A stretch of DNA of 64,000 nt from Panagrolaimus kolymaensis. Its lineage: Eukaryota; Nematoda; Chromadorea; Rhabditida; Panagrolaimidae. The notes under the pieces were generated by a model that saw only the letters and a list, made by a program, of their open reading frames with translations, ran no database searches and had not been told where the DNA came from. The stretch's first letter is position 1. Each line of letters starts with the position of its first letter. Of the stretch, positions 8,962 to 38,053 are shown piece after piece. The translations under genes and the position numbers were made by a program. Where the stretch lies: assembly GCA_028622995.1 (NCBI GenBank), contig JAJQJQ010000074.1:1-64000 (forward strand), given 5' to 3'.

Positions 8962-8969
8962 CTTTTATA
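8962..8969 (-). promoter_or_regulatory. TATA box of peptide A copy
   Basis: TATAAAAG on the minus strand, 54 bp before the ATG. Mirror of 24108-24115. Confidence 0.55.
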
Positions 8970-13874: not shown

Positions 13875-13886
13875 TACGCTAATGAC
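13839..13886. repeat. Hairpin over receptor start codon (palindrome copy)
   Basis: Two perfect 18-bp arms and a 12-nt loop. Mirror of 19191-19238. Confidence 0.85.
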
Positions 13887-16289: not shown

Positions 16290-16488
16290 CTAAAGAACCA
16301 TAAAAAGTTACTAAGTATTAATATAAGGATAGAAAAATGGAACAAAACAAGCAACAAACCTCTCAAAAATCAAGGACTTACTCACAAAAAATCTGCTTCA
16401 AATAAAAAGCAACAAAAAAATATTCTAAGTTTCAAAAAAAGGCAGCAAAAAAGAGAAGGAACAAAAAAGTTGGCAAATGAATGAAGAA

Positions 16489-16588
16489 GAAAAAAGTGGG
16501 TGTGAAAAAATCGCGTTCAGCGATCCCTAGATTCTTTTACGAAACATTTCGCAAATTTTTTCGCAGGTTGCACGAGCGTTTCTTTTCA
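16489..16588. other. Asymmetric spacer at palindrome centre
   Basis: These 100 bp separate the arms and do not pair with each other. The arms stop pairing at 16488/16589. The spacer has loosely related A-rich and T-rich halves around TCGCG and TTCGC but no exact dyad. No gene is seen. A unique spacer is what a real palindrome made by a fold-back or template-switch event would leave; a chimeric read can leave one too. Confidence 0.9.
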
Positions 16589-16787
16589 TTCTTCATTCAT
16601 TTGCCAACTTTTTTGTTCCTTCTCTTTTTTGCTGCCTTTTTTTGAAACTTAGAATATTTTTTTGTTGCTTTTTATTTGAAGCAGATTTTTTGTGAGTAAG
16701 TCCTTGATTTTTGAGAGGTTTGTTGCTTGTTTTGTTCCATTTTTCTATCCTTATATTAATACTTAGTAACTTTTTATGGTTCTTTAG

Positions 16788-18677: not shown

Positions 18678-18782
18678 CCTCTTTGTTTTTATTGTATTCT
18701 GTATTGACTTGTTTTTTTGTATGGACTTGTTTTTTGTATTGACGTAATAAATCTTTTTATAAAAATTTCAAAATTGTGTTAT

Positions 18783-18922
18783 TTCCAAAAATTTTATGGG
18801 GCCAAGCAAAAAAATGGAAGGAGGAAGAGAAATTTTGATTTCCTTAAAATTCGAAGAAATTTCGATTTCAGTAAATTCAAAAAAAAGAAAATTTTCCAAA
18901 TTTTTATGGGGCCAAGCAAAAA
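18783..18922. repeat. Direct repeat of a TATGGGGCCAAGC block
   Basis: Two copies of a roughly 27-bp block containing TTTATGGGGCCAAGCAAAAA (18783-18812 and 18896-18922) flank ~85 bp of A/T-rich DNA between the decayed gene and the minisatellite. The mirror lies at about 14155-14294. Confidence 0.6.
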
Positions 18923-18979
18923 ATAATTACGGTAACAAAATATTGACACCAAATTGAATTTACACCAAATCGAATCTCT

Positions 18980-19200
18980 GTCATTACTTTTATTGGTCAT
19001 TAAGCATGTTGTCATTAACTATTTTTTCTTGTCATTACTTTTTCAGTCATGTCATTAACATTTTATTTCTGTCATTACTTTTCCTGTCATGTCATTAACT
19101 ATTTTTTGTTGTCATTACTTTTTCAGTCATGTCATTAACATTTTTTTCATGTCATTACTTTTCTTGTCATGTCATTAACTATTTTTTCTTGTCATTAGCG
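18980..19200. repeat. GTCATTA minisatellite
   Basis: GTCATTA recurs about every 20 bp, with alternating spacers that make a 40-bp higher unit of types GTCATTACTTTTTCAGTCAT and GTCATTAACTATTTTTTCTT. It runs directly into the start codon of the receptor at 19203. Confidence 0.88.
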
Positions 19201-19238
19201 TAATGACAAGTTTGCGGACATGTCATTACGCTAATGAC
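19191..19238. repeat. Hairpin over receptor start codon
   Basis: The arms GTCATTAGCGTAATGACA (19191-19208) and TGTCATTACGCTAATGAC (19221-19238) are perfect reverse complements with a 12-nt loop. The ATG at 19203-19205 lies inside the left arm. Confidence 0.9.
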
Positions 19239-20351
19239 GCTGGTGATACTCATTTGCGGACATTTTTTTTTGCGTGTTCTGTGTTTTTAAATCATATTCA
19301 ATTTGGCTATATTTGCATGGGTCTTCTACTCATAGTTATTCTAATTTCTATTTTTGGTGGAATAAAAGAAAATTATAAATGGTTTATTCTTAATCAAGCT
19401 TTTTGGGATTTAGCTATAAGCTATAGGTATATATGGTTTAACATGGTTTCTTATCTCTTTTTTGGTGATACAAATTCAACATGCTTTTATAACTTTAAAA
19501 CAGGATGGCTACAAAACTTTTTCGAATATTCAATTGACACAAATTCATATTCTGCTTTATTTCTTTTTTCATTTATGAGATTTGTGGGATTATATTTTCC
19601 ACATTTTTATCAAAGAATTACAAAACATAAAAGAATTTTTTACGTGATTCTTATTTTCAACTTTTTTGTTATTTTTACTAACATTAACACACTTTTTGCT
19701 GATTTATCGGAACAAAGAAAGAATAATTTGGATAAAGAGTGTCTTCATGACGCTGTCTTATCAAATCTATCGAAGCATTCTTGCCCAAAAAATTATTACG
19801 ACGATTTTCAAGTGAAGTTATTTGACTTATTATTTTCTATTTTTAGCTGTTTTATGTTTCTGAAACCTATGTTATGTTTGCTACTATCATTTTTATCATC
19901 AATTTTAATAATTATTAAAATTATAAACCAACTTAAATTTCAATATAAACAGAACCGAAAAAATTTGATGAGTTCCATACGAATTTGCGTTGTCATTTTT
20001 TCGCAAACTAGTATCAATTTATTTGTTTTTATGATTGAATGTGCCAAAAATATTCCCATGTTTATGGGAAATACTTTTGATGTTATGATTATTACATCAA
20101 TATCAACTTGGAAATGTGATGATTGTTATTATTTTATCCTACCTGAATGGATTACGGGAAAATATGGATTATCTGATCCCACACTTCTCCAAACGATCGT
20201 CCAACTTCGAATATTTATCGAAGCTTTAGTTATTTTATTTATTATGTCTGGATATCGAGAGGCTGTAATAAAATTTATAAAATCACCCCGAAAAGTGTTT
20301 CAAAATTTTTCAACGGAAATTACTTTGACAAAAGTGTCCTCTTTCAATTAA
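19203..20351 (+). CDS. 7TM receptor with repeat-derived N-terminus
   Basis: Intronless gene for 382 residues, of the same 7TM family as 36833-38053. From the segment HIQFGYIC onward it aligns along its whole length with the family: the GGIKENYKWF loop, the SFMRFVGLYFPHFY end of TM3, the WKCDDC pair before TM7, and the MSGYRE motif after it. The first ~25 residues differ. Relatives begin with a conserved SLGG/IGG-type segment and a CFL motif; here that part is encoded by the GTCATTA repeat and its hairpin. The gene may use this new start, may have lost its proper start, or may be spliced from an upstream exon I cannot see. The C-terminal TKVSSFN matches the family tail. It sits between the minisatellite and the nonsense receptor. 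Confidence 0.75.
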   Translation: MTSLRTCHYANDAGDTHLRTFFFACSVFLNHIQFGYICMGLLLIVILISIFGGIKENYKWFILNQAFWDLAISYRYIWFNMVSYLFFGDTNSTCFYNFKTGWLQNFFEYSIDTNSYSALFLFSFMRFVGLYFPHFYQRITKHKRIFYVILIFNFFVIFTNINTLFADLSEQRKNNLDKECLHDAVLSNLSKHSCPKNYYDDFQVKLFDLLFSIFSCFMFLKPMLCLLLSFLSSILIIIKIINQLKFQYKQNRKNLMSSIRICVVIFSQTSINLFVFMIECAKNIPMFMGNTFDVMIITSISTWKCDDCYYFILPEWITGKYGLSDPTLLQTIVQLRIFIEALVILFIMSGYREAVIKFIKSPRKVFQNFSTEITLTKVSSFN

Positions 20352-21496
20352 TAGCTATCATCTCTTATTCGTAAGAACAAAAATGAAAAAATAAAGAATT
20401 TCAAGCTTTTATCCTTTAATGTCAAAGTTTTTTAAAATTGTATGTTTTTTCTTGTTGAATAAAAAAACGTTGGGCACACATATGCGTGTTAAATTCTATC
20501 AAGTACGATTTATTAAAAAGCCATTATTTTTTTGCAAAAAAAATATTAATCTATTGTTTCTAAATTTCTGAGTTTTAACCCTCTCCTTTGCAAAAATTAA
20601 AATATTTCAAAAATATTTAGTTTGCTTTATTTCAAGAATCAACTTTGTTTTCAGAATTAAATGTTTTTTTGTCAGTAAACCAGCCGCACGACAAATAATA
20701 CTTTGTTACAGGAATAATAACAGGGCAAGAAAGAACGCGTTTGATTCAAATCCACAACAGTTAGAATAAACACTTTAGCGATTTTTTCTTTGTCATACAT
20801 TTATTATTTCTAAAATTTACATTAAAAAAGTTGCATGTACAGTAATCAAAATTTTGGAAGCTATCTTTACTAAAACACATTGATTGTCGCATATAATTAT
20901 TTTATGGGGCATTTATTTATAAGCAAAAAAATCTTAAATGAAAACTTTTAAAAAACTAATGAACAATTTATATTCTTTTGTTTTTGCAAATTTCTTAGCA
21001 CATACGAATAATATACTGTATTTATTTTTTTCTGAGTCTTTTCCTTTTTTTAACAATAACAATATTATTCTCAAAGAATTTTCACACAAAAATAAAAAAA
21101 ATTTTAAAGTTCAACCTTGTTTTTAGAACTCGAATGTTTTTTGTATCTTCAAAAAAATTAAAGGTTAAAACAATACTTTTAATTCTTATAACAAAGAAAT
21201 AATACAATACCGTTTTCGAAAACTTCAACATTAATGAAAAGCTTTAAAAAAACGAGTAACTTTGTTTATTTTATACTTTAATAAAAACAATATTATTTTT
21301 GCAATTTACTCAAGTAAAATCCAAAACTTATTCTGTTATGAAAAAGGCGATAAACTACAAAAAGAAAAAAATAATAGGGCAAAAAAAGTTAATAAAATAT
21401 TTAAAAAGGTTGTAATTCATTATTATTTTTCATAAAATTAAAAACAATTTTCTTTTAACCTAAATAATCCACTTTTTTGTACAAAGAATCAATTTT
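20352..21496. other. Intergenic, very AT-rich
   Basis: No gene supported. No Cys-rich peptide gene was found upstream of the 21497 receptor, unlike the three intact outer receptors. Confidence 0.5.
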
Positions 21497-22696
21497 ATGG
21501 CTGAATTAAAGACAGAAAATTCGGAAACATGTGTTGCATATTTAGGTGGTCCTACAGGCCTCCATGTTAATCTTGATAGTTTCCGTTGTTTTCTGACGTA
21601 TTTTTCTGTAACTTTAAATCAAATACAATTTGGATATATTTGTATTGCTTTGTTAGTTATTATTATGTTTATTTCAATTTTTGGAGGAATAAAAGAAAAT
21701 TATCGTTGGTTCGTTCTTAATCAGGCGATTTGGGATTTAGCTATTAGTTATAAGTTTATATGTAATAACTTGATACAATATTCTTTTTATGGAATTTATA
21801 CCACTTCTTGTTTTTATAACTTTGAAACAGGATGGTTAACCTCCGTTTTTTAATTTTCAATTGACACAAATTCATATTCTGCTTTATTTCTTTTTTCATT
21901 TATGAGAATTCTGGGATTATATTTTCCACAAAAATATAAGACATTAACAAGAAATCAAGGAATTTTTTACATTATTTTTATTTTCAACTTTTTTATTATT
22001 TTTACTAATATTCATGCATTCTTTAATACGCTGTCAACCCAAAGAAAGGCTAGATTGAAAGAAGAATGCATTCAGAAATCTGAAATTAATAACATGAATC
22101 AAACTTTATGTTCTGGTAATTACGATGGAGATTATCAAATAATGATGTTTAAACTTTTATTTAGAGTATTTAGTTTTATTATGTTTCTCAAGCCCTTGAT
22201 ATGCTTATTTCTCTCATTCATCTCAGCGATTTTAATTATTTTTCGTGTTATAAAACAATTTAAGTTCCAATATAACCATAATCAAAAAGACCTCACAAGT
22301 TCCATTCGAATTTGCGTTGTTATTCTCTTACAAACCTTAATAAATTTTTTTGTATTTTTTATCGAGTGTGTAAAAAACATTTCCCTTTTTATGGGCAATA
22401 CTTTTGATGTTATAATTATTACATCCATTTCAACTTGGGATTGTAAGAATTGTTATCATTTTATCCTCCCTGAATGGCTTAGTGGACAATATGGATTAGC
22501 TTACTCTCCAGTTTTACAAGCAATCGTACAAACGCGAATTTTTATTGAATCATTAATTATTTTATTTATTATGACGGGATATCGAGAAAGTTTATTAAAT
22601 TTTATCAAATCACCTCGAAAAATGTTGTGGCAATTCATAACAGGTGAAACATCGAGCGTCACAATTTTAATAACACAAGTTTCTTCCTTAAATTAA
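21497..22696 (+). pseudogene. 7TM receptor with one nonsense codon
   Basis: The frame runs 399 codons plus stop and is intact except for TAA at 21851-21853, codon 119. Paralogs have a sense codon there (Q, E or G before the (F/Y)SI(D/S)TNSYSA segment), so a single CAA-to-TAA change would explain it. Codons before and after align with the family without gaps: TM1-TM2 with GGIKENYRWF upstream, TM3 to the tail with WDCKNC and MTGYRE downstream. It ends in the family-like tail TQVSSLN. It could be a recent pseudogene, a read-through gene, or a consensus error; identity in both arms does not decide this because they may share reads. Confidence 0.8.
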
Positions 22697-22983
22697 TTAA
22701 TATGCTTAACTTATTTTATATATCGTTTTATCAAAGAAAAAATAAAATAGACTCTTTGCTTCGTCGAATAAAAAAACACACAATAAAAATTCACTTTATT
22801 TTCAATGTCCTCTAATTTCCTTGTTTGACACTTTATCATAAAAGCCTTTTGAATTTTTTTTTAAACTTGTACCGTATTCATTATTATCAAAAGACCCAAC
22901 CTTATATTATATAATGCATCACTTTTCCATGTAATTATTACAAAATCTATAACATTTAAACTGTCAAAGTTTTCATTCATAAG

Positions 22984-23434
22984 TGTTGCCAGTTGTAGGG
23001 GTTTTGTAAATTTGTAACTTTTGATTTTTTGTGAAAATCTTTATTTAAGTTTTGTTTATCTTTGTTTTAACCTTTACTCCGTTTTTTATTTAATCTCTTT
23101 CTTTTTTTCATTTTTCTCACGAAAAACGAATTTTGGATTGTGAAATTTTATCTTTGTCTAAAAAGCGAGCGTCTTGACGGATCCTCAAAAGTCTGCTGGC
23201 ACCGCGCGCTTTTCTAGAAATGATCGATCGTTGTGCAATATAAACGAAGTCCGTATAAAAAGGATTCGACATTAAAAATCTTGATCGATTTCGGAGTCAG
23301 TCTTATTTTGAGTTCTTTGATGCATTAGATTGAGTGAATTTGGAAATAAATAAAAATTTATAAATTTGTCTCAATTCTCTCCCAAAATAAAAGAGCTGAT
23401 ACCTATTCAGTCGAAGGCCGCGGCCCCAGTAACA
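22984..23434 (+). mobile_element. Solo-LTR-like element
   Basis: A 451-bp block begins TGTTGCC and ends GTAACA, the TG...CA pattern with short inverted ends seen in LTRs. Flanks are ATAAG (22979-22983) and ATAAT (23435-23439), a possible imperfect 5-bp duplication. Inside are a TATAAAAAG box (23254-23262) and, about 85 bp on, AATAAA (23345-23350), the order expected in an LTR. Base composition is richer in GC than its surroundings, with GGCCGCGGCCCC near the end. No gag or pol is present. A diverged promoter of another kind is the alternative. Confidence 0.5.
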
Positions 23435-24107
23435 ATAATTTTTTCCTTTGATGAGTATTTGATTTTCTCTCTAGTTGAAAACATAACAAAAAATGTAGAG
23501 TGAATTTATTGAAATAATTTTTAGATTTTTCTTTATTATTTTTTTATTATTTTAAACTGATTATGTGACGTCTAAATTCCCATAAAATTATCTGACGTAC
23601 TTTAATACGACGAAGATCAAACATGTGAGAGATCTTTTGTATCGAATATTTGTATCATCAATAACACAAAACTTTTTACGACAAATGATTATTTTGAGGG
23701 AAAAAAGAATAAAATTAACATTAAAAATTATTTATGAATGAACATTAATTTGAGGCCCATATGTAGAAAAAATAAAAAAGAATTCACATGTTAAAAAACA
23801 TTTTAAAAATCAGTGTCATCTTTTCAAAGCAACTTAAAATTACGGAAAGAATTAGTTTAGATTTAGAAAATAAAATTAAAATATTCTTTAACCAAAGAAA
23901 GACTAAAAAAAATTGGCCCAAAACCAAAAGTATGACATATACATAACATGACGAAAAAAAGGCTTATAATTTAAACAATGGGAAAAAATATTCTTTTTGT
24001 AGCCCTTTAATCAATGATTAAATTACATATAATTTATGATAATCTTGACCACCCCTAAAGTCATAGGGTTTATTAAGAGTTCCGGGTGAATTATATGAAT
24101 AAAATCA

Positions 24108-24115
24108 TATAAAAG
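24108..24115 (+). promoter_or_regulatory. TATA box of peptide A
   Basis: TATAAAAG 54 bp before the ATG. The extended context CATATAAAAG, then AAATCAA, is shared with peptide C. Confidence 0.6.
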
Positions 24116-24161
24116 CAAATCAAATCGATGGTAAAAACATAATTCATCCTGCTTTGTAGAT

Positions 24162-24495
24162 ATGAAAACTGCTTTTATCATTCTTATAGTTGCTTTTGCT
24201 TTTCTTTTAGCTGCCGATGCTTTTAGTGTAACTGTATTTAAAAATGTGAGTTTTTTGAATTTCTTTAAAAAATAAAAAAAGAACGCAATATCTCTAATTA
24301 CACAGTGTTAATGGAATTATCATATTATCTGAAACAATAATAAAAAAAATATGCGCGAATTTTTAATCAAAAATCTTTTAGGGATTTCAAAATACTGTTC
24401 TGGATAATTGTTGTCAATGCCCAGAAGGAGCAGGAACAATATGTCAATGCTGTTTTGGTTTGCCCGCACAAACTGGATTTTGTTGTGACTTATAA
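24162..24495 (+). CDS. Small secreted 8-Cys peptide A
   Basis: Two exons, 24162-24245 and 24382-24495, join in phase 0 (donor GTGAGT, acceptor CTTTTAG) to give 65 residues. Residues 1-20 are a clear signal peptide (MKTAFIILIVAFAFLLAADA). The mature part has the pattern CCxC-x7-CxCC-x9-CC, ending TGFCCDL: eight cysteines within 30 residues. Peptide C has nearly the same core (CCxC, CxCC, LPxxTGFCCD), which supports both predictions. I do not recognise a named family. It is likely secreted and disulfide-bonded; antimicrobial, signalling or structural roles are all possible. The next gene downstream on the same strand is the receptor at 26622. Confidence 0.78.
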
Positions 24496-24701
24496 TTATG
24501 GATTAAACATAACGCTAGCTGCTAAATTTATGGGAAGATAAAAGTATAAAAAAGTTATCATTTTCTACATCCAGGACGTTTAATTCAATACTTTTTTGTA
24601 TTTGAGTTAAACGATAATAAATAACTTTTTTGTTGAAACTTCAAAAATAAAAAGCATTGTACATAAAATTGATAAATTCATCACCAAACCAAGATTCTTC
24701 C

Positions 24702-25086
24702 CAGAGCTGTCAAATCGCTGTTTTTCGATAGCATCGCTCGAAATCGTTTTAGCGACAGAGAGGGATTCGATGAAGTCGCTGAATTTTCTTCGCTTTTTCT
24801 TCTGGAAGCATTATCACAAAAATTCATTTGAACTTCCGAGTAACACTTCTGGGTCTTGCAACGAAAAAGTACAATTGAATTTTTGTGATAATGCCTACGG
24901 CAATCTCTGTTCACCGCTTCGCTGAAACGATGATCACTTAACAAAAAAGACACGCAAAAAAACGTCGCTGCTTCTAACAGCGGTAAGACGTTGAATTCGC
25001 TGAAGCGATTTTCGCTTTGGAATTTTCTCGCTTCGCCTCGCTGCAGCGATAAACGACGTCTTGAGCGAAGCGATTTGACAACCCTG
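24702..25086. mobile_element. hAT-like MITE
   Basis: Right-arm copy of 7991-8375, with the same ends and the same 8-bp flanks. It lies between peptide A and the 26622 receptor. Confidence 0.8.
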
Positions 25087-26621
25087 GTTCTTCCTCATTT
25101 ATTTCCCCATCTTCTCTTGAGGAATGACAATTAAACTTCATTCGCAAATGAGCTTTCACATCCATGCTAAATTTTTTTAGCATTCTTTTCATTCGCATTG
25201 GAAGGGGGCATTTCTTTCGCATTGGAAGGGGGCACTTCTAAGCATAAGACCTTTCATATGATGCGTTTTCAGAAATCAGGTCGTCAATTCAGGTATCCTC
25301 ATCAAAATTTCAATCCATAGACACCCAACATCAGGACATCAAGCACATTTTCAAAAAGTATTGCTTGATTTTTCTGCCTTTTTGTTTTTCATGTTTTTAG
25401 CATTTGAATATGCATAATTTCTAATTTTTAAGAGAGTTAGATAAAAAGGAAGTATATATTCAAATTTTATTCACGGAAATCTTTTATTTGATCATTGTTT
25501 GTGAGAAAAAAATTTAAAAAGGTTTGCTCCACAAAATTGAAGACAACCTGTAAAAAAAATTCCTTTTGACTTTTATCATCATTATATTACTTTGTGCTTT
25601 TTAATGACGTCGTTGTTTTTTTTTTATTCGGTAATAAATCTCTTGTTGAAACATTCGGAATTTAAAAACAACAAGGGCTAATTTCTATAAGAAGTGCCTC
25701 ATTTTTGTATTTCATATTTTTTTACACCAATCAAAAAGCATTCATGTCCTCAAAAGCAGAAAAAGGAAAAAAGTCTTAAATTAAAAATATACTCTATAGC
25801 ATTAATAAGTACATAGTTGTTTTACGCAAAGATTAAGAAAAAATCTTTTTTATTTGGGAAAAGAAACTACTTTTACTTCTTTATTAAAACTTAATAATTG
25901 TTTATCTATGTAGATCGACATATGTTTAAAAAAAATATTGATAGAGTAAGTTGAAAGGGATATTTTAAAACCTTTACATGCGTTTTTATAAAACTTTTAG
26001 ATACCATAAAGATTTTAAATAGGAAAAAAGGAATTTTTTTGTTATTAAAACAAATGTTACAGGTCATTGCTGAGTTTGTATCATGTGCATGACCTCCTTA
26101 AATTACAAAAGCGCCTAATTTTATTGCCAACGTAATATGTTTGTGGAGTTTTATTGTGTCTTAAAGTTTACTAAGTTTTCTTGCATCTTTAAATGACTCA
26201 AACATAATTCTTAGTAAAAAATTTTTCTTTCATTATTTTTTCTATACCACAAAACTAAAATAAAATATCATTGCAAAAACAATTTTTTTATTTCTGTTTA
26301 GCGATGAACTTTCTCGCTTTTTTCCCTAAGGAAGATTTAATTCTCGTCCTTTATTAATAAAGGAGGAGAGAATGAATATTATTTAGAAATATATGTTTGT
26401 TCGCTTCTTTTTTTCTATGGTATAATTATAAAAGCTAACACGGTTAAAAAAACTCGGTTACAGACTAACAAAAACGTTAAATTTTAATAAAAGTAAAAGG
26501 TTAGTACACTTGAGAGTTGAAGGGGTTGAACCTTTACTTTTCTACTTGAATAAATACTTTACCGTTCCTTTCATTTTTCAGTGTTTTTTACTGATATCTA
26601 GGACATCTTGAGCTTTTACAA
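25087..26621. other. Intergenic between peptide A and receptor
   Basis: AT-rich, with no coding frame. Near 26060-26110 is a moderately conserved-looking stretch with no assignable role. Mirror 6456-7990. Confidence 0.4.
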
Positions 26622-27830
26622 ATGACTGAGGTGGTGATGGATAGTAATTTTACGTGTTTGGCTTACATTGGTGGATCTACTGGTCTTCACATTGACTTGG
26701 ACAACTTCAGATGTTTTTTGGCTTATTTTTCTGCTTTCTTAAACAAAATCCAATTTGGGTATATTTGCATTTCGCTTCTGATAGTTATTATGTTTATTTC
26801 TATTTTTGGTGGAATTAAAGAAAATTATCGGTGGTTCGTTCTTAATCAATCATTTTGGGATTTGGCAATAAGTTACAACTATATTTGTAGCAATTCAGTC
26901 CAATATAATTTCTTCGGAATCTATAATCAAACATGTTTCTTTAATTTTAAGATAGCGTGGTTATCCGCCATTTTTCAATTTTCAATTTCTACAAACTCTT
27001 ATTCAGCTTTGCTACTTTTTTCATTTACAAGATTCTTGGGTATATATTATCCACTTTTATATCAAAGATTAACAACTAAGAAGAAAATTTTATTCACGGT
27101 TTTAATTTTTAACTTTATTGTTATTTTTACAAACTTCCATGGTCTTTTTTCTGAACTATCATCCCAAAGAAAAAATTTGTTATCTCAAGAGTGTCAACAA
27201 AATGCAGTAATGAAAAATATTTCACAAGTTTCATGTCTCCCAGACAGCTACAATGGAGATTTTCAAATTAACCTTTTTACAATCTTGTATAAAATTTTTA
27301 GTAGTTTTATGTTTCTGAAACCTATTTTATGCTTGCTACTTTCAACAATATCAGCATTTTTCTTAGCTCTTAAAGTAGCGAAACAATTTAAATTTCAATA
27401 TGAACATAATAAAAAAGACATAATGGGTTCTATTCGAATTTGTGTGGTAATTATTCTCCAAACTTTTATGAACTTATTTGTTTTTATAATTGAATGTGCA
27501 AAAAATATTCCATTATTTATGGGGAATACATTTGGTGTTAAAATTTTGACTTCTAACTCAGCTTGGGTATGCTCAACTTGTTATTATTTCATTCTTCCTG
27601 AATGGATCAGTGGAAATTATGGATTAGTTTATGCACCGGTTCTTCAAGCGATTGTACAATCTCGCATTTTCCTCGAAGCTTTTATTCTTTTATTTATTAT
27701 GACCGGATATCGAGAAAGCCTTGTAAATCATATCAAAAAACCCTATCATTTTTTCAAAAAGAAACAGATGGGAATAACTACTACACCTGTCCAGTCATTA
27801 AGATCGACGCCTGTAAGATCATTAAGATAA
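26622..27830 (+). CDS. 7TM receptor, nematode family
   Basis: Intronless, 402 residues from the ATG at 26622; a second in-frame ATG at 26637 would give a start nearer that of its relatives. Seven hydrophobic segments. The first intracellular loop carries GGIKENYRWF. TM3 ends SFTRFLGIYYPLLYQRLT, which resembles the DRY/LAxxxPLxY region of rhodopsin-like receptors with Thr-Arg-Phe in place of Asp-Arg-Tyr. The loop before TM7 holds WVCSTCYYFILPEW, and TM7 ends MTGYRE instead of NPxxY. The tail repeats TPV-x-SLR twice. Likely a plasma-membrane chemosensory or peptide receptor; I cannot place it in a named Sr class. Peptide A lies 2.1 kb upstream. Confidence 0.85.
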   Translation: MTEVVMDSNFTCLAYIGGSTGLHIDLDNFRCFLAYFSAFLNKIQFGYICISLLIVIMFISIFGGIKENYRWFVLNQSFWDLAISYNYICSNSVQYNFFGIYNQTCFFNFKIAWLSAIFQFSISTNSYSALLLFSFTRFLGIYYPLLYQRLTTKKKILFTVLIFNFIVIFTNFHGLFSELSSQRKNLLSQECQQNAVMKNISQVSCLPDSYNGDFQINLFTILYKIFSSFMFLKPILCLLLSTISAFFLALKVAKQFKFQYEHNKKDIMGSIRICVVIILQTFMNLFVFIIECAKNIPLFMGNTFGVKILTSNSAWVCSTCYYFILPEWISGNYGLVYAPVLQAIVQSRIFLEAFILLFIMTGYRESLVNHIKKPYHFFKKKQMGITTTPVQSLRSTPVRSLR

Positions 27831-30031
27831 ATATTTCGGTCTAAAACTTGATATTGTCAAATGATAAATAATTTTAAAAATCTAAACAATTTATTGTATA
27901 ATAGGCTGCTCCTCATTTTTGGTGTTGCTTTTTCATTATTTTCTAAGTTTATATTATTTTCTAATAATTGAATTATTTTTCAAAAAAAAGTTACTGTATG
28001 TTTTTTTCTAATTTAATGATGTAATAAAAAAGTTTGTTTGAATTAATTGGCTTGGCATTTTCTTTATATTCTCCACACATCCCAAAGGTGGGAAGAGTTT
28101 CGACGTAAACATGTTTTCATTTGATTTTTTCCCTTAGGGAATCATTTATAAAAAAATGGTTTTTATTAAAGTCATCAAATTTTTTGTTTAAATTAATTGA
28201 CTTGGCCTTTTCTATACCATCACCACACATCACAAGGGATTATGTGTTTTGATAAAAACATGTTTACTACAAAAATTTCCATTGGGGAGCTTTGTTAATT
28301 GGAAGTCATGCATCCAGTGACGATATCAAAAACTAAGGACATTCGAAAAACTTCATAATTCCTTTAGGAAAAAAACTTTTTACACAAAAAAAGTTAGGAC
28401 ATCTGATAAAGTTTTACCAAAAACTCATTAACTTATAACTTCAAAAAGGTTAAAATATTAACAATGTTTGACAAAAAGCTCATTAAATTGGGTTACTGTA
28501 AGCACGTGGAAACAATCTAAAAGCTTTGGTTTAAGAAAGAATTAAAAATATTATCCAAGCAAAAAATTAATTTTGTATTTTGTATGAAAGTAAGTATCGA
28601 CAATGTTTAAAAAATGCGAAAATCAAAAAAAAATGTTAAAGTCTGTGAGGTTCTAAAATGAATAGAAAGAAGAAGCTATGAATCAGAAAAGTGAAATAAA
28701 CATTATTCTATTAAGACATTTAGTGTATTCATTTCCCCCATTTTTAACTTAAAAGCTTAGATAGACGTTTTTATAACTTTAGAACAAAATTTGTTGTAGC
28801 GATGACTAATTAATTTTAAATATGAACTATCAAACAATTTTTTCTAACTAAAAATCTCGACACTCAGGTTCAATTGAATTAAAAACTTGTATTGACCGGC
28901 CATGCCCATGAAATTACATACTTTAATATAAAAAATGAGGCATTAAAATGAGGATTATTGCCAGCATTGTTCAACAATCGTACCTTTAATCATTTTTTTG
29001 TGTTTTCTACGTTAAAAATGAAAAAAAATGAATACATTCACATGTATCCCTTAATATGTTTTTTTTGTAAGAGATTAACAATCACGGAATGAATATATAA
29101 TTAATGCGATAGTTTTTTTTATAAAAAAATTAACTAATAAAATTATGATTTTTGATCAAATAATAAAAAACCAGAAATGCAAATGATCGATAAGGAAGAA
29201 AAAAATTTAAGTTCGATAAACCATTGTTTTTCTTCTTGTTAATGCCATGGGCTCAAAATGTGATATGATCAAATAGCGGGAAAAAATGATAAAATAATGT
29301 TAAAGTTCAATAATATGACATTTCTTGACTAAATCAATTACACAGATAAAAAAATTAGAACGACCTTAGCTCGCTTATTTGTAAAAAGGTTGGAAATTCA
29401 ACGAATTTTGGAGTGCAAACTCATCAAAAGTTGAAAAATTCAAAATTATATGAGATTAAAGTAATGATAATCTCCGTAAAGAATTTTAAGACATATTTAG
29501 TTTTTTTACACTCTAATAAATGAAGACGTTTAAACTGTTATGAATTTAAAAAATCCTTAGAAGTGGTTCCGACTTTTTTTATTTTATCTAAAATTCACTG
29601 TTATAGGAGAAAAGTTTTATTGAATCCAAAAAGCTCCACAAACTAAAAATCAAAAATAAAAAAGTTTAGAAGCAATAATTTTGTAAATTGTGATTCTTGA
29701 TAATTAAAGTATAATTTTTTTTATATTTCTGTAAATCAATGTTCATTGATTAAACGTGACAAACCACATTTTAACATAGGATGTTATTATTTTTATTCAT
29801 AGTCTTTTTATGAATGTAACACACGTTAACTATACGAGTTTAGTTTAAACTAAAAATGCGTTATAAAACTTTCAAAAGGTCGCATAAAAGCGAATATGAT
29901 TATTAAAACAAGGAAGGGTAAAGGTCATCAGACATTTTTAATCTGGATTTATTATATAATTTGAGTTTAATTAAATCAAACTAAAACACGATACACTAAA
30001 AGTTGATAATAATTTCTGTTAAAATTTTTAA
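27831..30031. other. Intergenic with a duplicated block
   Basis: About 28034-28275 holds two diverged direct copies (AATTAATTGGCTTGGC / AATTAATTGACTTGGC, then TGTGTGG-complement and AAACATGTTT blocks). The rest shows no gene. About 29.7-30.0 kb resembles 34.7-34.9 kb, the upstream flank of peptide C. Confidence 0.55.
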
Positions 30032-30039
30032 TATAAAAG
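30032..30039 (+). promoter_or_regulatory. TATA box of peptide B
   Basis: TATAAAAG 54 bp before the ATG, as in peptides A and C. Confidence 0.6.
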
Positions 30040-30085
30040 AAAATTGAAGTAAAGGATAAAATTATATTTTAAAGGGTTTGCGAAA

Positions 30086-30600
30086 ATGAAGGCAGCATTC
30101 ATCATCCTCATCGTTTCCATCATTGTTCTTTTGGCAGTTGAAACCATCATAGTAAGAAATATGAAACAATAATAATTTCTTTAAAAATGTTTTTCAGGCA
30201 GCACCAGCGGCATCCGATTCTGTCAGCGCTGCAAAAAGCAATGTATTTGTAAGTTATTTAATATTTTAATGATAAAAAAGTTAGAAAATTAATAGAAACT
30301 AAGAATTTAAAATATACATAAAAAATTTTATTCCGGAGAGTTTTATGTAGTGAAACATGCTGAAATTAAATTTTTTTTACATTTTTTAAATGAAGATTCT
30401 GAAGTTTCACAAGAAAAGTATGAGAATGGTTGCATTTGGTAGTTTTGCTTCTTCTGTTGCAAAAAAAGCTTTCTTTAACTCTAAAAACATCGTTATTTTA
30501 GACGGCTGTCCTTAATTGTTGCTTTTGTACAGGAGGCAAAACAACACAAGGTTGTCCTTGTTGTTACCCGTATCAAAATGACATGTGTTGTTATACTTGA
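30086..30600 (+). CDS. Small secreted 8-Cys peptide B
   Basis: Three exons, 30086-30151, 30198-30248 and 30502-30600, all phase 0 with GTAAG donors and TTTTCAG/TTTTAG acceptors, give 71 residues. Residues 1-22 form the signal peptide (it starts MKAAFIILIVS, close to peptide A). Exon 2 encodes an Ala/Ser-rich linker (AAPAASDSVSAAKSNVF). Exon 3 holds the core CCFC-x8-CPCC-x7-CC: eight cysteines with the same CCxC / CxCC / CC order as A and C but without TGFCCD. Exon 1 has the same length and phase as in peptide C, pointing to a common ancestor. Function unknown. The receptor at 31416 lies 0.8 kb downstream on the same strand. Confidence 0.78.
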
Positions 30601-30954
30601 AGGATCTGCCAAGAACATGAGTGATGTTACAATGTAAAGAGCCTACCCAGTTTCCGCATTACCCTAATCTAAACAATAATAGTTTTTTTGTTTAAAATTT
30701 ATAGTAAAAGTTTATTTTAACTTTTTCTAATAATAAAAAAATTAAAAATTTTTACTTAATGATTTTCATCATTCGTTCGATGTCCGTGTCATTTTAATTT
30801 TTCATTTACATTTGAGATATTAAAAATTGCAAAAAATTTCAAAGTTAAAATTTAATGATAGTTTTTTAACAAGTTAAAAATTGCTTTCATTTGTTGAATG
30901 CAAGCTTTGTATCTCTTTTCGAAAAAGAGAAAGGAACGCTTCGAAAAAAAGAGA

Positions 30955-31025
30955 CGTTTCTCTCTCTTTCTCTCTCTTTTTTTCTAATTCCCGCAAAATT
31001 CTCTCTCCTTTCTCTCTCTTTTCTT
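30955..31025. repeat. CT-rich simple repeat
   Basis: TCTCTCT runs between peptide B and its receptor. It may lie in the receptor's promoter region; no other role is visible. Confidence 0.7.
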
Positions 31026-31193
31026 ATCAAAATTCATTGCTTCACTTTCTCTTTTCCTTCGCAAGCGAAGCGTTTGAACAGCTCTGTTTCCGTGCATCTC
31101 TGTTTTACAAGTGGCTTTTTACAAGCTGGAAGACAAAAAATAAGAAGTCTCTTGGGGGCAGAAGAGGTTGGACTTCTCCTTTTCTAAGGTTCT

Positions 31194-31202
31194 TATATAA
31201 GG
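31194..31202 (+). promoter_or_regulatory. TATA-like box of the 31416 receptor
   Basis: TATATAAGG 222 bp before the ATG. The relative at 36833 has TATAAATAG 208 bp before its ATG. Confidence 0.4.
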
Positions 31203-31415
31203 GACATTTCTGTTTTTTTATAAAATTATTGTGAAGAGAACATTGAAGAATTTATTCGTCAAAACACTTTTAACATCAAGCGCTTAAGTCAGATAATTTA
31301 AATTATAAAGATCGTTTTTCTACAAAGCTTTTATTTTCATTACATCCTATATATTTATTTACTTCACATATTGTTAAAATTTGTCAAAGTTCTTCTACAT
31401 TAAGTGTTGCTGAAG

Positions 31416-32663
31416 ATGGCAGAATTTAATAAAAATAACCTTGCATGTGGTATATCCTTGGGTGGACCCAATGGTACTCTTGTCTACTTTGACCAATTCC
31501 AATGTTTTTTGGCGCATTTTTCTCTTTTTTTAAGTCAAATACAGTTTGGTTATATCTGTATTTTTCTTCAGATGGTTATTTTTCTTGTTTCAATTTTTGG
31601 TGGAATTAAAGAAAACTATCGATGGTTTATTGTTAATCAAGTTTTTTGGGATTTAGCAATTAGCTATCGCTTTATTTGCAATAATTCGATCCAAAGTGTA
31701 TTCTTTGGAAATGACGATGAGACATGTTTTTATAACTTATTTAATACAAATGGAAATTATTTATTTAATTTTTTCTTTTATTCTATTGATACAAATACTT
31801 ACTCTGGATTATTTCTTTTTTCTTTTTCCAGATTCTTGGGATTGTATTTTTCACATTTTTACCAGAATATAACAAAAAAATGGAATATTTTAATCTTAAT
31901 ATTATCTTTTAATTTTCTTATTATTTTCACTAACATCAAAGATGTTTTTTTTACTCTTGAAAGTGAACGAATGAGTTATTTGGAAGAAGAGTGTATACGC
32001 GAAGCTGAAATTACAAATATTTCTCAAGATTTGTGTTCTGTGGATTACATAGATGATTTTCAAATTAAATTATTTAGTATTTTACTCAATATATTTAGTT
32101 TTATTATGTTTCTAAAACCTATGCTATTTTTGTTGCTATCCTTGGTAGCTGCATTTATGTTGGTTCTTCAAGTTTCCAAGCAATTTAAATTTCAATATAA
32201 AAATAATAAAAAAGCTTTGATGGGTTCAGTTCGAATTTGCACCGTTGTTATAGTCCAAACTTTAATGAATATGTTTATATTTCTTCTTGAATGTACAAAG
32301 AATGTTCCAATGTTTTTTGGAAATACTTTTGGTATTATTATTTTTACCTCACCGAAGCCATTTGAATGCCCTACTTGCATTAATTTTTTTCTTCCTACTT
32401 GGATTACCGGTGGTTTTGGATTGACTTCTTTTAGCGTTCTTCAAGCAATTGCACAACTCAGAATTTTTATTGAATCTTTTCTTATTATAATTCTTATGAC
32501 TGGTTATCGAGAAGGCCTTGTCCAAATGATTAAAAGACCACATGAAATACTTAAAAAGTATAAACAAATTCACCCCGGTATTACGACGACTCCTGTAACT
32601 GCGTTTCATACCAATACAACTTCCAATCTTACAAGGACCCGAGTATCTTCATTTCATTCATAA
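31416..32663 (+). CDS. 7TM receptor, nematode family
   Basis: Intronless, 415 residues from the ATG at 31416. The open frame extends upstream only through non-ATG codons. Seven hydrophobic segments, with GGIKENYRWF between TM1 and TM2, SFSRFLGLYF at the end of TM3, FECPTC before TM7 and MTGYRE after it. The tail shares KRPHEILK and KQIHPGITTT with the protein at 36833 and ends TRTRVSSFHS, making these two the closest pair in the window. A likely membrane receptor of a nematode-expanded family; ligand unknown. Its 3' flank has tandem repeats that also follow the 36833 gene. Confidence 0.87.
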   Translation: MAEFNKNNLACGISLGGPNGTLVYFDQFQCFLAHFSLFLSQIQFGYICIFLQMVIFLVSIFGGIKENYRWFIVNQVFWDLAISYRFICNNSIQSVFFGNDDETCFYNLFNTNGNYLFNFFFYSIDTNTYSGLFLFSFSRFLGLYFSHFYQNITKKWNILILILSFNFLIIFTNIKDVFFTLESERMSYLEEECIREAEITNISQDLCSVDYIDDFQIKLFSILLNIFSFIMFLKPMLFLLLSLVAAFMLVLQVSKQFKFQYKNNKKALMGSVRICTVVIVQTLMNMFIFLLECTKNVPMFFGNTFGIIIFTSPKPFECPTCINFFLPTWITGGFGLTSFSVLQAIAQLRIFIESFLIIILMTGYREGLVQMIKRPHEILKKYKQIHPGITTTPVTAFHTNTTSNLTRTRVSSFHS

Positions 32664-33129
32664 ACTCATCTAAGCATGGGTTGCATTTTCAAAGCAAAAC
32701 TCTAGAAACTAAAAAAAGTTTTCATTTTTTTCTATTATTCCCTAATATTTATTTAGCTTGCATTTATTTTGTTCTTAAATTATACTGTAATTTTATTATG
32801 AAAAAAAATCAAAAAAAAAAAAAAAATATTTTAATTTTATTTGTTTTTGTTCTTTAATTGTTTTAAAAAAAATATTTATTGTAATTTTGTATTTAAAAAT
32901 TTTTGAAAAAAAACTCGAGAACCATGTATTTTTATATTTATTTAAATTTTTTATTTAATATTACTTTTATAAGTATACTGTAATTTTCTTTTCTGTAAAT
33001 GTAAATTAGTTCTGTTTTAATAATAAATAAACTTGTGTGTGTTTTTTAATTGCATACCCCAAGAGGCAAAATGATAGAACTATGTGCAGATAAATCCCGC
33101 GTGTATAATTATAGTATCTTTATTTTTCA

Positions 33130-33740
33130 TTTTGAAAAACAAGTTTTTAAAGTATTTAATTAAGATCAAATAAACTTCTTTTTAGAATTTTCTAGGGAAT
33201 ATAGCGCAAAAGTCATCAAAAATTTTAAAAATAAACGAAAAATCAGTGCATACTACAATCTGCGATAAAAGGAACAATAAAATCCCTTGTGTAGGACGTG
33301 CAATTTTAGCTTTTAAAAATATTACTTACAATTAAAAAATTTTCTAAAAACCATTTTTTTAATTCTCAAAAGGTAAAGAGCCAAAGTCATTAAAAAATAT
33401 TAAACAAAAGTCGAGATAAAATGAAAGTAGGCAAGGTAATACTACCGTATTATGAAGTGGTAACTTCCATCTTTATCTCCTTAGGGAAGGAATGTAGCAC
33501 TTTATTATTTATTCAAAAACATGTTTTTTAGATTATCATTCTTACTTCTAATAATCAACTTCTTTTTTTTAATTTCCGAAGGGAACAAGGCAAAAGTTTT
33601 TTAAATGTCGAAAAGTCAAATGAAAAACAGATAAGCAAAGGTGAAAAAGAAGCAGCCGTATTAAGAAATGATATTTTCCGTCATATCTCTTGGGTAGGGA
33701 TGTAGCACACTTTTTATTCTGAAAGTATGTTTTCCACAAT
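33130..33740. repeat. Three diverged ~205-bp tandem repeats
   Basis: Three units, each with an AAGGxAAAAGTCATTAAA-type block and ending near GGGTAGGGATGTAGCAC, are spaced about 205 bp apart. The last unit (TCATATCTCTTGGGTAGGGA at about 33683) is nearly identical to one at about 39260 behind the other receptor. Confidence 0.65.
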
Positions 33741-34986
33741 TATCATTTTCAAGAAAACAAATTGTTGCCCTTAATGATTATGGATAATCCTAATAAATTG
33801 TCGTTTAAAATGTTATATTTTTATTAAAGACTTTAAGAAAAAATAAATCTGCGGAGTCTAATAAATACTAATTACATTTTTTCGCAATTTATTCTAGAAA
33901 TTTAATACTGAGAACAATCGCTATTATGCTGTTCGATGAAAAAAGTTCAAACAAAATTCTTTAAAATGGCTCAAGGGTCCAAGTTTTCAGTTTTTGTTGA
34001 CTAGAATGAGTTTTTTTAGTTCCGAGAAGTTTTGATTTGCTTCAAATTATAAAAAAAATTGGATTATAAATAAATAAATTATGATTTAAAAAAATCTGAA
34101 ATACGAATGGAAACTACGAAAAATTATCAAAAATTGAAAATCCATAAATACATTTTTTAAAATATATATCTAAGAAGATGAGATCAGATAATTACATATA
34201 AAATTGAGGGTTAAAAAAGTTAGAAAAACTCGAAAAATAATACTTAAATTTAAACCTATAACAAATTGAGCCATTATAATCATTATTCAAGTAAAATTTT
34301 AAGAACAAATATTGCAAGCATTTCACCGACATAAAGAATAAAAACGATTTTAGTAAGATTTAATCTCAATATAGTTCATTAAAGGTTACCCATTAATTTT
34401 TATTTAAAATAATTCAACAGTAAACGATCAGCTCTATGATTTCTAGTAGCATAAAAAGAAGCTATTAAGCTTGTCTTCAGCAACAATAAATTATCCAAAT
34501 TATTTTAGTGGATTATCTTATTTCTTCAATTTCGTCTATTAATTTTTTAAATAAAAATCTTGAAAATGTTTAAAAATTTATTGTTAGCATTTAAAAAAAC
34601 AAAAAAAGGAAAAAAACGACTTTAATTGCAAATTAAACTAAATCTAACATAAAGTTCAAAAAATTTGAAAACTAATGTGAATTAATATTCGATGATCATA
34701 TACGTGACAAAAGCAACTTAGAAATATGTAGTTAGATACCATTTTTATTCGTAATCTACTTATCAATGAAGCACATGTTAACTATTTAATTTTAAACCAA
34801 AAAATGTGTTAGAAAATTTTTAAAAAGTCACGAAAAATATGTTAAAATTATGTAAACCAGAAAGAGATTATTAGGTCATGTACTTTTTTTTACTATAGTT
34901 TAAAATATTGTATAACTTATGATAATTTTAACTTGCGTAAGCATATTTTACTAAAAAGAAGGCATTATTTCTTGTTAATATTTTCA
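33741..34986. other. Intergenic, AT-rich
   Basis: No gene seen. About 34.7-34.9 kb aligns loosely with 29.75-29.95 kb (shared CACATGTTAACTAT-like and AAATGTGTTA-like blocks), marking the upstream part of a segmental duplication. Confidence 0.5.
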
Positions 34987-34994
34987 TATAAAAG
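34987..34994 (+). promoter_or_regulatory. TATA box of peptide C
   Basis: TATAAAAG 53 bp before the ATG. Confidence 0.6.
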
Positions 34995-35039
34995 TAAATC
35001 AAGCAAATCATAAAAGCATAATTTTCTGCATTTGCAAAA

Positions 35040-35784
35040 ATGAAGATCACATATACCATCTTACTTCTTGCTGTTGTCCTTCTTTTTGTAGCTAATGCAG
35101 TAAACGTAAGATTCATTTAAAAAACTTTTATATAAAATTTAGAGTCATTTTTAGGCAGCCGAAGAGCAAGCTGGCAGCCCTGTATTAAATAATTTAAGCG
35201 TAAGTTATTTGTTAGGCTTATAAAGGTGGGAAAAGTATAAGGTGTTTTTGAAGATTAATTTCTTTCATTTCATTAACAATATGTCCAATCTTTTTCATTT
35301 CTTTGAAAAACAGTATTTTTTTGTCATTCCCTTCCAAGCAAATCGTATTTTTCTCCTTTTTTATGAATCTTTCTTTTCAAGGCATAATAATTTTCTTTTA
35401 CGAAACTTTTCGAAAATGACAAAGAAAGAAAATGATACAATATTAGAAAGCCTGGAAAGCATTGACAGAAAAAAATGCCGCTTGAAAAAGATGTGATATT
35501 TAGCAATTTTTTTTATTAATATTCAGGAATTTTAAATATTTTTAAACTATTGTATAACTTTAAATCTAAAAGAATCGAAATAATGATGTCTGCTTTATTT
35601 TTTTCATTTCATACCATAGCAAGAAAAAATCAAAATCATCGCTTAACATTTTTATTTAAATTTAGGTAACTTTCAGGCAATCCTTAAGGGGCAATTATGC
35701 TGTACATGTCCCTTAGGCTCGTGTAAATGCTGTAATAAATTACCCGGTAGAACTGGATTTTGCTGTGATAAAAAGGCAGGATAA
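35040..35784 (+). CDS. Small secreted 8-Cys peptide C
   Basis: Three exons, 35040-35105, 35155-35199 and 35677-35784, all phase 0, give 72 residues. The third acceptor is TTTCAG at 35671-35676; an alternative AG lies 11 bp upstream. Residues 1-20 are a signal peptide (MKITYTILLLAVVLLFVANA). Exon 2 encodes an acidic/Ser linker. Exon 3 holds CCTC-x5-CKCC-x10-CC with LPGRTGFCCD, matching the LPAQTGFCCD of peptide A. Exon 1 matches peptide B in length and phase. Long intron 2 contains a spurious 84-codon frame. Function unknown. The receptor at 36833 follows 1.05 kb downstream. Confidence 0.75.
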
Positions 35785-35968
35785 CTATCATAACTTGATG
35801 AATGTTCTTTGTTCATAAAAGATGGTGTAATATGTACAGCTTATATTCATTAAAAAAAAAATTAAATTTAACCTCACTTCTTCCAGTTATAAATGTATTT
35901 TGTAATCAAAAACAACGATTAAACCTTTTTCTACCGTTTATTTTTTTCTTCAGTTTATGATGCAAGAC

Positions 35969-36219
35969 CACACATGGGCACAGGGTGTGTTTGGGTGTGT
36001 TTTGACATACCCAGGGGTAGTGGGGTAGCGTTGAGGTTTTCGGAAATTTAAAAAAAAAGAACAGGGAGGACCCTTTTGTTTTCTGTTTAAAAATTATGGG
36101 GTAACGTTCAAAAAATTTCAAAGAAAAATATAGCAAAGGGAGGACCATGTGGAAATTTCTTAAAAATTTAGGGGTATCGTTGTCAAAAATTTTGAAGCAC
36201 ACCATCATGCCCAAGTATG
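35969..36219. mobile_element. Short TIR element (MITE), CACACATGGGC family
   Basis: A 251-bp element with ends CACACATGGGCA and (complement) CATACTTGGGCA, flanked by a perfect 8-bp duplication TGCAAGAC at 35961-35968 and 36220-36227. It is GC-richer than its surroundings, with a GGGTGTGTTTGGGTGTG stretch. No protein. The ends match the larger element at 45295-47365. 8-bp duplications suggest hAT-type mobilisation. Confidence 0.75.
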
Positions 36220-36624
36220 TGCAAGACTATGGAAAAATCTCGATATTTTAATTGTAATTTTTTTGTTTATTTTACTTCCACAAATATAGTGATAAATTAA
36301 CAATAAAATGTAAAATTTTCTTTAGATTTTTCCACATTATTATAGCTTACGCATATGTGTAGAGTTATTTTTTGCCTTGTAATTCACGATATATTTGCTT
36401 TAAAGTTATACTGATGTAAAAAGGATAAAATAAAATGTTTTAAACTTGACGTTCTAATCATGTGTGTATATTTATTATTTATGGAATGTCTTACTAATTA
36501 ACTAAAACACCGCGCATGTTTAGAGTTTAGTACATTTGAAAAAAATATTTTTGCTTAATAAAATAAGGTATCTCCTGAGAATAAAAGGGGTGGAACATCT
36601 ATTCTCGACTTGTTTTTGGAAATG

Positions 36625-36633
36625 TATAAATAG
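36625..36633 (+). promoter_or_regulatory. TATA-like box of the 36833 receptor
   Basis: TATAAATAG 208 bp before the ATG, at a place like that of the 31416 gene. Confidence 0.4.
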
Positions 36634-36832
36634 TAGCTATCTCGTCTTCTTTAAATTTTACTTCAATAATTATCTTTATTAATACTATTCCTATCTTCCA
36701 CAAGCATTATCGTGAATTTGAACCTTAGGCAAAAGTAAATCTTGGTTGATACTGTATTTTGTGTTGTAAATAAATAAAAAATTAACTATAATACCTGCAT
36801 TTGGTCATCTTCTGGAATAAAAATTACCAAAA

Positions 36833-38053
36833 ATGGCCGGTGGAAAAAACGTTAGTTGTGCTGCATATATTGGTGGAACCACTGGTCTCAAAATTGATCT
36901 TGACAGCTTCCGTTGTTTTTTTGTTTATTATTCTGTTTTCTTAAACAAAATCCAATTTGGTTACATATGTATTGCACTCTTGATAGTTATCATGATAGTG
37001 ACCATTTTTGGTGGAATCAAAGAAAATTATCGATGGTTTGTACTTAACCAAGCATTTTGGGATTTGGCTATTAGTTACAGCTTTATTTGCAATAACTCGA
37101 CCACATTCACTTTTTATGGAATTTATACCCCTTCTTGTTTTTATAACTTTGAAACGGAATGGTTAAAAGACTTCTTTGGATACTCAATTGATACAAATTC
37201 ATATTCTGCTTTGATGCTTTTTTCAATAAGCAGATTTATAGGCTTATATTACTCACATTTTTATCAAAAGCTAACACAAAAAAGGAATATTGTTTTTGTG
37301 ATTTTTATATTTAACTTTATCGTTATTTTTACAAATATCCATTCGCTTTTTAGTCATTTGCGGGATCAAAGAGCGAATTTTTTGGAGGAAGAATGCATTA
37401 AGCAAGCAGGCAGAAAAAGGCTTAATGAAAATTCATGTTTAGAAAGTTATGATTATGACTTTCAACTCTATCTTTTTACTACCTTATTTAATATTTTTAG
37501 CAGCATTATGTTCCTTAAACCAATGATCTGTTTATTTTTATCTTTGGTGGCCGCAATTTTCTTAATTCTTCAAGTTTCAAAGCAATTTAAGTTTCAATAT
37601 AAAAATAATAAAAAAAACTTGATGAATTCCATTCGAATTTGCGTTGTTATTACTCTACAAATTATAATTAATTTATCTGTATTCTTCCTTGAATTTGTAA
37701 AAAATATTCCAATGTTTATGGGAAATACATTTAGTGTTACAATTTTAACATCAAAGACATCATGGGAATGTGATGAATGTGTTTATTATATTCTTCCTGA
37801 CTGGCTTGTTGGTAATTATGGATTAAGTTATTCTCCTGTCTTGCAAGCGATTGTGCAAAGTCGAATTTTTATCGATTCGATTCTCACTTTATTTATCATG
37901 ACGGGATATCGAGAAGGCATTGTCCGAATTATAAAAAGACCCCATGAAATACTTAAGAGGTACAAACAAATTCATCCAGGCATTACCACTACCCGTGTAT
38001 CAGCGTTTCATCCCAATAATACTAGGACTCGTGTATCTTCGTTCCATTCTTGA
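36833..38053 (+). CDS. 7TM receptor, nematode family
   Basis: Intronless, 406 residues. Approximate membrane segments are 40-60, 68-87, 122-142, 152-172, 215-248, 268-292 and 334-358. GGIKENYRWF (60-69) is the loop between TM1 and TM2, and SISRFIGLYYSHFY (131-144) follows TM3 like a modified DRY region. Cys313 and Cys316 (WECDEC) lie in the loop before TM7, and TGYRE (357-361) replaces NPxxY. The C-tail repeats the motif as ITTTRVSAFH and TRTRVSSFHS. Probably a chemosensory or peptide receptor at the cell membrane. With peptide C upstream and ~205-bp repeats downstream it repeats the layout around the 31416 gene. Confidence 0.88.
   Translation: MAGGKNVSCAAYIGGTTGLKIDLDSFRCFFVYYSVFLNKIQFGYICIALLIVIMIVTIFGGIKENYRWFVLNQAFWDLAISYSFICNNSTTFTFYGIYTPSCFYNFETEWLKDFFGYSIDTNSYSALMLFSISRFIGLYYSHFYQKLTQKRNIVFVIFIFNFIVIFTNIHSLFSHLRDQRANFLEEECIKQAGRKRLNENSCLESYDYDFQLYLFTTLFNIFSSIMFLKPMICLFLSLVAAIFLILQVSKQFKFQYKNNKKNLMNSIRICVVITLQIIINLSVFFLEFVKNIPMFMGNTFSVTILTSKTSWECDECVYYILPDWLVGNYGLSYSPVLQAIVQSRIFIDSILTLFIMTGYREGIVRIIKRPHEILKRYKQIHPGITTTRVSAFHPNNTRTRVSSFHS

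Follow-up and report, generated by a model that had tools for sequence, protein, structure and literature searches.

In basidiomycetes, genes for pheromone precursors adjoin STE3-like receptor genes at the PR (B) mating-type loci, where several paralogous subloci are sometimes present (PMC8305134). Vertebrates sense soluble peptide pheromones with expanded receptor families (V2R), and the accessible part of the corresponding source does not mention paired neighbouring genes (PMC11526382). Nematodes possess chemoreceptor superfamilies (Str, Srh, Sri, Srj and others), which are large tandem families of seven-helix proteins. Here we describe an arrangement from the nematode Panagrolaimus kolymaensis, found in the first 64 kb of contig JAJQJQ010000074.1 (C73; called the window in the following, with C73 starting at window base 1), in which genes for small, predicted secreted peptides with eight cysteines (Cys) precede genes for seven-helix receptors of one family. 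As at the fungal PR loci, small exported (here predicted) peptides are encoded next to seven-helix receptors in repeated paralogous pairs, but the fungal pheromones are lipid-modified CAAX peptides whereas the peptides described here carry eight Cys, have no CAAX end and belong to an animal, and the receptors do not match Pfam STE3. Like the nematode superfamilies the receptors form a large tandem seven-helix family, although the four of the five window receptors that were scanned match no Pfam Sr family, and the genes have a single exon wherever matched. The likeness to V2R and peptide pheromones, namely soluble peptides being sensed by expanded receptor families, is drawn without sequence comparison. 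For nematodes, no paper on linked peptide and receptor genes was conspicuous in the literature searched, which comprised titles and abstract openings with most subscription journals outside it.

A sequence-only reading of this DNA had placed three peptide/receptor pairs at 24162/26622, 30086/31416 and 35040/36833, and all three are indeed present there, on the + strand and with single-exon open reading frames (ORFs) for the receptors (P1/R3, P2/R4 and P3/R5). Our main result is that this pair is a real, old, dispersed and co-inherited cassette. Besides three homoeologous clusters, about five further loci carry such pairs, with the peptide gene mostly 5' of the receptor gene and either on the same strand or divergent; the resulting number of about six paired loci follows from grouping by position and similarity at our own judgement.

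The linkage was followed through the whole genome (265,843,910 bases in 807 contigs). Receptors were listed from 103 of 457 first-look candidates scored with R3 as query and from 101 of 444 candidates scored with a metagenomic relative, giving 129 places after merging, and the listed receptors together with 5 kb make up 0.42% of the genome. Copies on the left arm of C73, on C179 and on C236 were removed before peptide places were counted, the C112 duplicate of C73:222092 was kept and weak places (E 0.003–1) were included. The three Cys exons of the window find nine other non-duplicate places, all of them not more than 5 kb from a listed receptor (9/9) and all within the window's cluster or its homoeologues. 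With all queries 44 non-duplicate places were obtained, 33 of which have a listed receptor not more than 5 kb away, as have 30/36 of the places at E ≤ 0.01 and 25/28 at E ≤ 0.001. The sequence-only reading had asked whether the linkage exceeds expectation and, checked inside this one genome, it does; the opposite outcome, the two families being unlinked elsewhere, was sought in the same genome and not found. The exceptions at E ≤ 0.001 are C148:392, more than 5 kb from any listed receptor, C26:2889887, which lies ~300 bases from a receptor fragment, an open 3' third (L048), and C31:1005732, for which the 1.7 kb read in the 3' direction contained no receptor of the family (L047); the other eight unpaired places have E values of 0.005–0.33. 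Close to C31:1005732 (C31:1004000-1005700; L047 from ~420, +) lies an open frame that resembles, by eye, a seven-helix receptor of another family.

Starting from the receptors led to the same picture. From the R3-query list 18 receptors were picked, all outside the window's clusters, and up to 3.5 kb of 5' DNA was read for each. Six of these flanks contain a family peptide (Table 1), compared to ~0.01 expected from the genome place count. Four of the six peptides show the strict Cys pattern, while L037 and L042 came from a looser Cys-rich scan; the peptide at C12:1830432 is a variant with one extra residue in the first motif and that at C24:3449520 a variant with seven Cys, for which no signal exon was found. 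The remaining 12 of 18 flanks had no peptide in the DNA read, and at least some of these 12 resemble one another or a peptide-bearing flank and so are homoeologues or duplicates. Among the 47 non-duplicate listed receptors closest to R3, 27 have a 5' peptide within 6 kb, or 28 with C24:1243801, whose peptide was seen when the clusters were read and again in a later genome-wide query, compared to two of the 75 other listed receptors, both via a peptide that belongs to or is nearer to another receptor. The seven-Cys variant also gave four weak matches on C1, C6, C7 and C2 (E 0.007–0.04), far from listed receptors, which possibly represent an unrelated Cys-rich family.

The three window peptides share one layout, in which a signal-peptide exon comes first, the putative introns are in phase 0 and the last exon shows the Cys spacing CC-x-C...C-x-CC...CC, all splicing being modelled from reading frames and splice sites. 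In the 64-kb window the strict pattern occurs only in P1–P3 and two mirror places, and in none of 30 mononucleotide shuffles. Between the signal and Cys exons the pattern LxYLKxxxxxLxxTIxxFEKV is found, which we take as a probable pro-region. An alignment of 21 Cys exons shows seven invariant cysteines, the eighth in 20/21, and variable loops. The window peptides end in ...CCDL, ...CCYT and ...KKAG and thus not in a CAAX lipopeptide motif. No named family was found for the three spliced peptides in Pfam, the eight-Cys peptides had no match among PDB sequences, 17 peptide candidates had none at E ≤ 0.1 in the protein collection, and no relatives were found in viral or prokaryote collections. 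Hepcidin-like disulfide-rich peptides have a core of ~25 residues with eight Cys including CC doublets; size and Cys number are alike, but the order CC-C-C-CC-CC differs from that of hepcidin and no PDB sequence matched. The pooled ratio of nonsynonymous to synonymous substitutions (dN/dS, omega) of the Cys exons is 0.38, with single comparisons up to 0.99, and positive selection on the peptides is thereby not shown.

The receptor genes of the window are five ORFs of the same family arranged head to tail on the + strand, each with ~380–415 codons in one frame, R2 carrying one stop. For R1, R3, R4 and R5, i.e. four of the five, Pfam was scanned: the gathering score for 7tm_1 (30.5 bits) was not reached, with 17.7 bits for R3 and no match for R1, R4 and R5, and neither the nematode Sr chemoreceptor profiles nor STE3 gave a match up to E 1. 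The predicted structure of R5 is a confident seven-helix bundle that can be aligned with solved class A receptors, among them the neurotensin, cholecystokinin, orexin and galanin receptors but also amine and lipid receptors, so that the predicted fold names no ligand. Most of the N-termini examined contain two cysteines, often behind an N-glycosylation sequon. Values for dN/dS of ~0.17–0.35 between window receptors (dS near or above 0.9) and of 0.11–0.63 between receptor homoeologues show that purifying selection acts on the receptors. Within the reach of the searches, such receptors were seen only in Panagrolaimus protein entries, ENA metagenome contigs and the present genome.

Table 1: Positions of the paired genes, repeats and similar flanks in the window, and of the peptide-bearing receptor flanks elsewhere (splicing as modelled).
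Feature	Position	Strand	Remarks
Left arm, inverted repeat	1..16493	-	reverse complement of 33077-16583
Mirror copies, left arm	R4 414-1661; P2 Cys exon 2480-2575; R3 5247-6455		
Mirror copies, left arm	P1 Cys exon 8585-8695; R2 10381-11580; R1 12726-13874		
Right arm, inverted repeat	16583..33077	+	centre 16494-16582 (89 bases)
R1 receptor, module H	19203..20351	+	usual N-terminus replaced; no 5' peptide found
R2 receptor, module G	21497..22696	+	in-frame TAA at codon 119; no 5' peptide found
P1 peptide gene, module F	24162..24495	+	exons 24162-24245, 24382-24495 with stop; 65 amino acids, 8 Cys
R3 receptor, module F	26622..27830	+	402 amino acids, single exon; 5' neighbour P1
5' flank of P2	29730..30091	+	66% similar to 34676-35045 before P3
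P2 peptide gene, module E	30086..30600	+	exons 30086-30151, 30198-30248, 30502-30600 with stop; 71 amino acids, 8 Cys
R4 receptor, module E	31416..32663	+	415 amino acids, single exon; 5' neighbour P2
3' flank of R4	32727..33733	+	67-68% similar over overlapping pieces to 38258-39311 after R5
P3 peptide gene, module D	35040..35784	+	exons 35040-35105, 35155-35199, 35677-35784 with stop; 72 amino acids, 8 Cys
R5 receptor, module D	36833..38053	+	406 amino acids, single exon; 5' neighbour P3; structure modelled
Six peptide-bearing flanks	C26:1863380, C26:1873638, C13:2864143, C8:1129063, C12:1830432, C24:3449520		

The published assembly of P. kolymaensis is triploid (PMC10374039), and C24, C27 and C73 would be three pseudohaplotypes, i.e. 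homoeologous contigs; their colinear aligned pieces have ~67–94% of bases in common. All three carry the modules A to F in equal order (copies on C24 and C27 are marked by the suffixes 24 and 27), with the peptide genes divergent from the receptors in A, B and C and on the same strand in D, E and F. C24 holds all six modules, on C27 the scan gave no B and two inverted F peptides, and the B peptide of C73 has no listed receptor 5' of it. In the clusters, the scan before the receptors beyond module F gave no peptide. That receptors without a peptide are the altered ones, as the sequence-only reading had noted, is true for the window contig (R1 and R2) but not for the homoeologues, where G27, H24 and H27 are intact without a peptide; these also refute as a rule that receptors without a peptide are decayed. 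Damaged receptors are R1, R2, G24 and I24, and B24, a paired receptor, is cut short close to its end by a stop at codon 395. R1 begins 6 bases past a tandem array and shares with R2 a 52-base identical run (window 21852-21910) right after the premature stop of R2, while elsewhere both are ~60% identical at the protein level; judged from the sequence, this looks like gene conversion with an edge at the R2 stop. No convincing peptide relic was found 5' of R1 and R2. The array itself (19010-19197) consists of a 40/80-base unit directly before R1, and the replaced N-terminus of R1 is read from repeat-like sequence.

As best single explanation of the pairing we would propose a ligand-receptor cassette, with a probability of about 0.5. 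The two-gene cassette was copied as a unit and spread that way in this nematode lineage. Of its two genes, one would encode an exported product with a signal sequence, a short pro-region and a small eight-Cys core expected to fold via disulfides, and its partner, with the peptide gene on its 5' side, a class-A-like seven-helix receptor. The peptide would be the ligand of the adjacent receptor or a protein shaping what this receptor senses, each cassette might form one signalling channel from worm to worm or from tissue to tissue, and new channels would arise by copying both genes. That this amounts to a new animal peptide–G protein-coupled receptor (GPCR) system, in which the genes for ligand and receptor are linked and duplicate together and of which one nematode genome holds about a dozen distinct pairs, is a tentative claim falling somewhat short of an even chance.

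Between homoeologues the peptide dN is 0.29–1.02 in modules D–F and 0–0.10 in A and C, and receptor dN ranks like peptide dN (rho 0.84, falling to 0.70 once receptor dS is removed; the 15 comparisons are not independent). Several points weigh against the ligand-receptor explanation. This correlation of rates could come from linkage alone, and the distance matrices between modules give a Mantel r of 0.35 with p 0.19 (six modules, peptide tree unresolved). A common promoter motif of peptide and receptor genes was sought and none was found, and the predicted receptor fold also fits amine and lipid receptors. Furthermore, no peptide was detected for 19 of the 47 close receptors, several of which are intact, and the peptides at C73:76649 and C31:1005732 have no family receptor in the DNA read. 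The receptor list covers the best-scored candidates only, and as the peptide queries L031, L033, L036, L037 and L042 were discovered by inspecting receptor flanks their hits are partly ascertained. Least affected by such bias are the 9/9 places of the three window exons and the six of 18 flanks. Binomial and Fisher values, in whose calculation related copies count as independent, are not taken as probabilities here. The idea of co-duplicated ligand–receptor pairs put forward by the sequence-only reading is therefore borne out for co-duplication and linkage; co-divergence beyond linkage is not shown (between-module p 0.19) and the peptide stays a candidate ligand.

The main rival is hitch-hiking, in which functionally unrelated neighbours a few kb apart were copied together and have not yet been separated, with the peptide possibly acting otherwise; we regard it as unlikely, yet it has to be taken seriously. 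Block copying did take place in the window, where modules D and E resemble each other in their flanks (Table 1), and as the 5' flanks of P2 and P3 resemble each other the copied block reaches beyond the genes. The non-significant co-divergence between modules, the intact unpaired receptors and unpaired peptides, and the richness of the window in other chemoreceptor-like genes such as the Srh-like one at 40020 are also in line with hitch-hiking. Against it speaks a tblastn comparison of open segments (at least 30 residues) taken from the 18 receptor flanks together with three flanks of the window, with locus groups set by hand: five between-locus matches were obtained at E ≤ 0.001, all of them in peptide genes by position (Cys exon or putative pro-region). 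As only peptide-gene matches are shared between the 5' flanks of the loci examined, what the loci have in common is the peptide gene together with the receptor gene. Moreover, same-strand and divergent arrangements both persist, and the receptors at paired loci are only ~54–57% identical to R3, so that the pairing has outlived much divergence. Simple tandem duplication, the null explanation of the sequence-only reading, thus shaped the copies in the window but alone fails for about five further loci sharing only the peptide gene. Block duplication is an explanation for the origin of the copies, not by itself for their recurrence at about six loci between which no other common element was found.

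Clearly less probable than hitch-hiking is another functional module, in which a defence or effector peptide (e.g. an antimicrobial one) and a receptor sensing the matching cue would be kept together for joint use or control. The small Cys-rich core with its variable loops would suit such a role, and so would the promoters, as TATAAAA is found up to 300 bases upstream of 12/15 peptide starts compared to 4/14 receptor starts, a pattern suggestive of a peptide produced in large amounts and controlled separately. This bias would suit a separately controlled, abundantly secreted product and does not speak for shared control. The motif ATATAAAAG is present in 9/9 peptide genes of modules D–F, slightly more than 50 bases 5' of the ATG. 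What argues against a defence module is that neither Pfam nor the PDB sequences offered a similar named peptide family and that a promoter motif shared by both genes was not found.

That chance or assembly artefacts produced the pairing is hardly credible and is refuted for the right arm: the contig start does carry a near-perfect mirror and C179 does repeat C73:31584-39211 with 0 mismatches and one gap, but once mirror and duplicate copies are removed, diverged homoeologues and other loci still show the pairing. The two 16.5-kb arms differ by 0 substitutions and four 1-base gaps, and in the homoeologous stretches of C24 and C27 read each module occurs once, except for the two inverted F peptides on C27. 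The inverted repeat is probably an assembly fold-back, as the simplest reading of the sequence, with a very young genuine inverted duplication as a possible alternative. As the left arm mirrors the right arm, its pairs add no evidence in either case. The two further pairs noted earlier in the left arm are thus present but are mirror copies of the first two pairs and no independent cases, and their use as replicates is rejected.

Further genes were seen in the window. An Srh/Sri-like chemoreceptor ORF of 406 amino acids lies at 40020-41240 (-) in a single frame without intron (Srh match 1.6e-24), followed at 43843-44808 (+) by a tyrosine recombinase-like ORF (Phage_integrase, E 1.7e-11), presumably from a mobile element. 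The region 53139-56881 contains two tandem copies, 80–90% identical in pieces, of what resembles by eye another spliced chemoreceptor gene, and 60478-61659 (+) a DUF1679/EcKL kinase-like gene with at least two open pieces (profile match for 61090-61659).

A large family of single-exon GPCRs that has no Pfam family of its own, and a family of eight-Cys peptides, are now delimited, and why the two are associated calls for an explanation even should the peptides turn out not to be ligands. If the ligand-receptor explanation is true, many orphan nematode receptors would gain a candidate ligand by position alone. How ligand and receptor change together without loss of the signal is a standing question, which linked and co-duplicating animal pairs would make directly testable, and the cassettes would then be an animal counterpart of the fungal pheromone–receptor loci.

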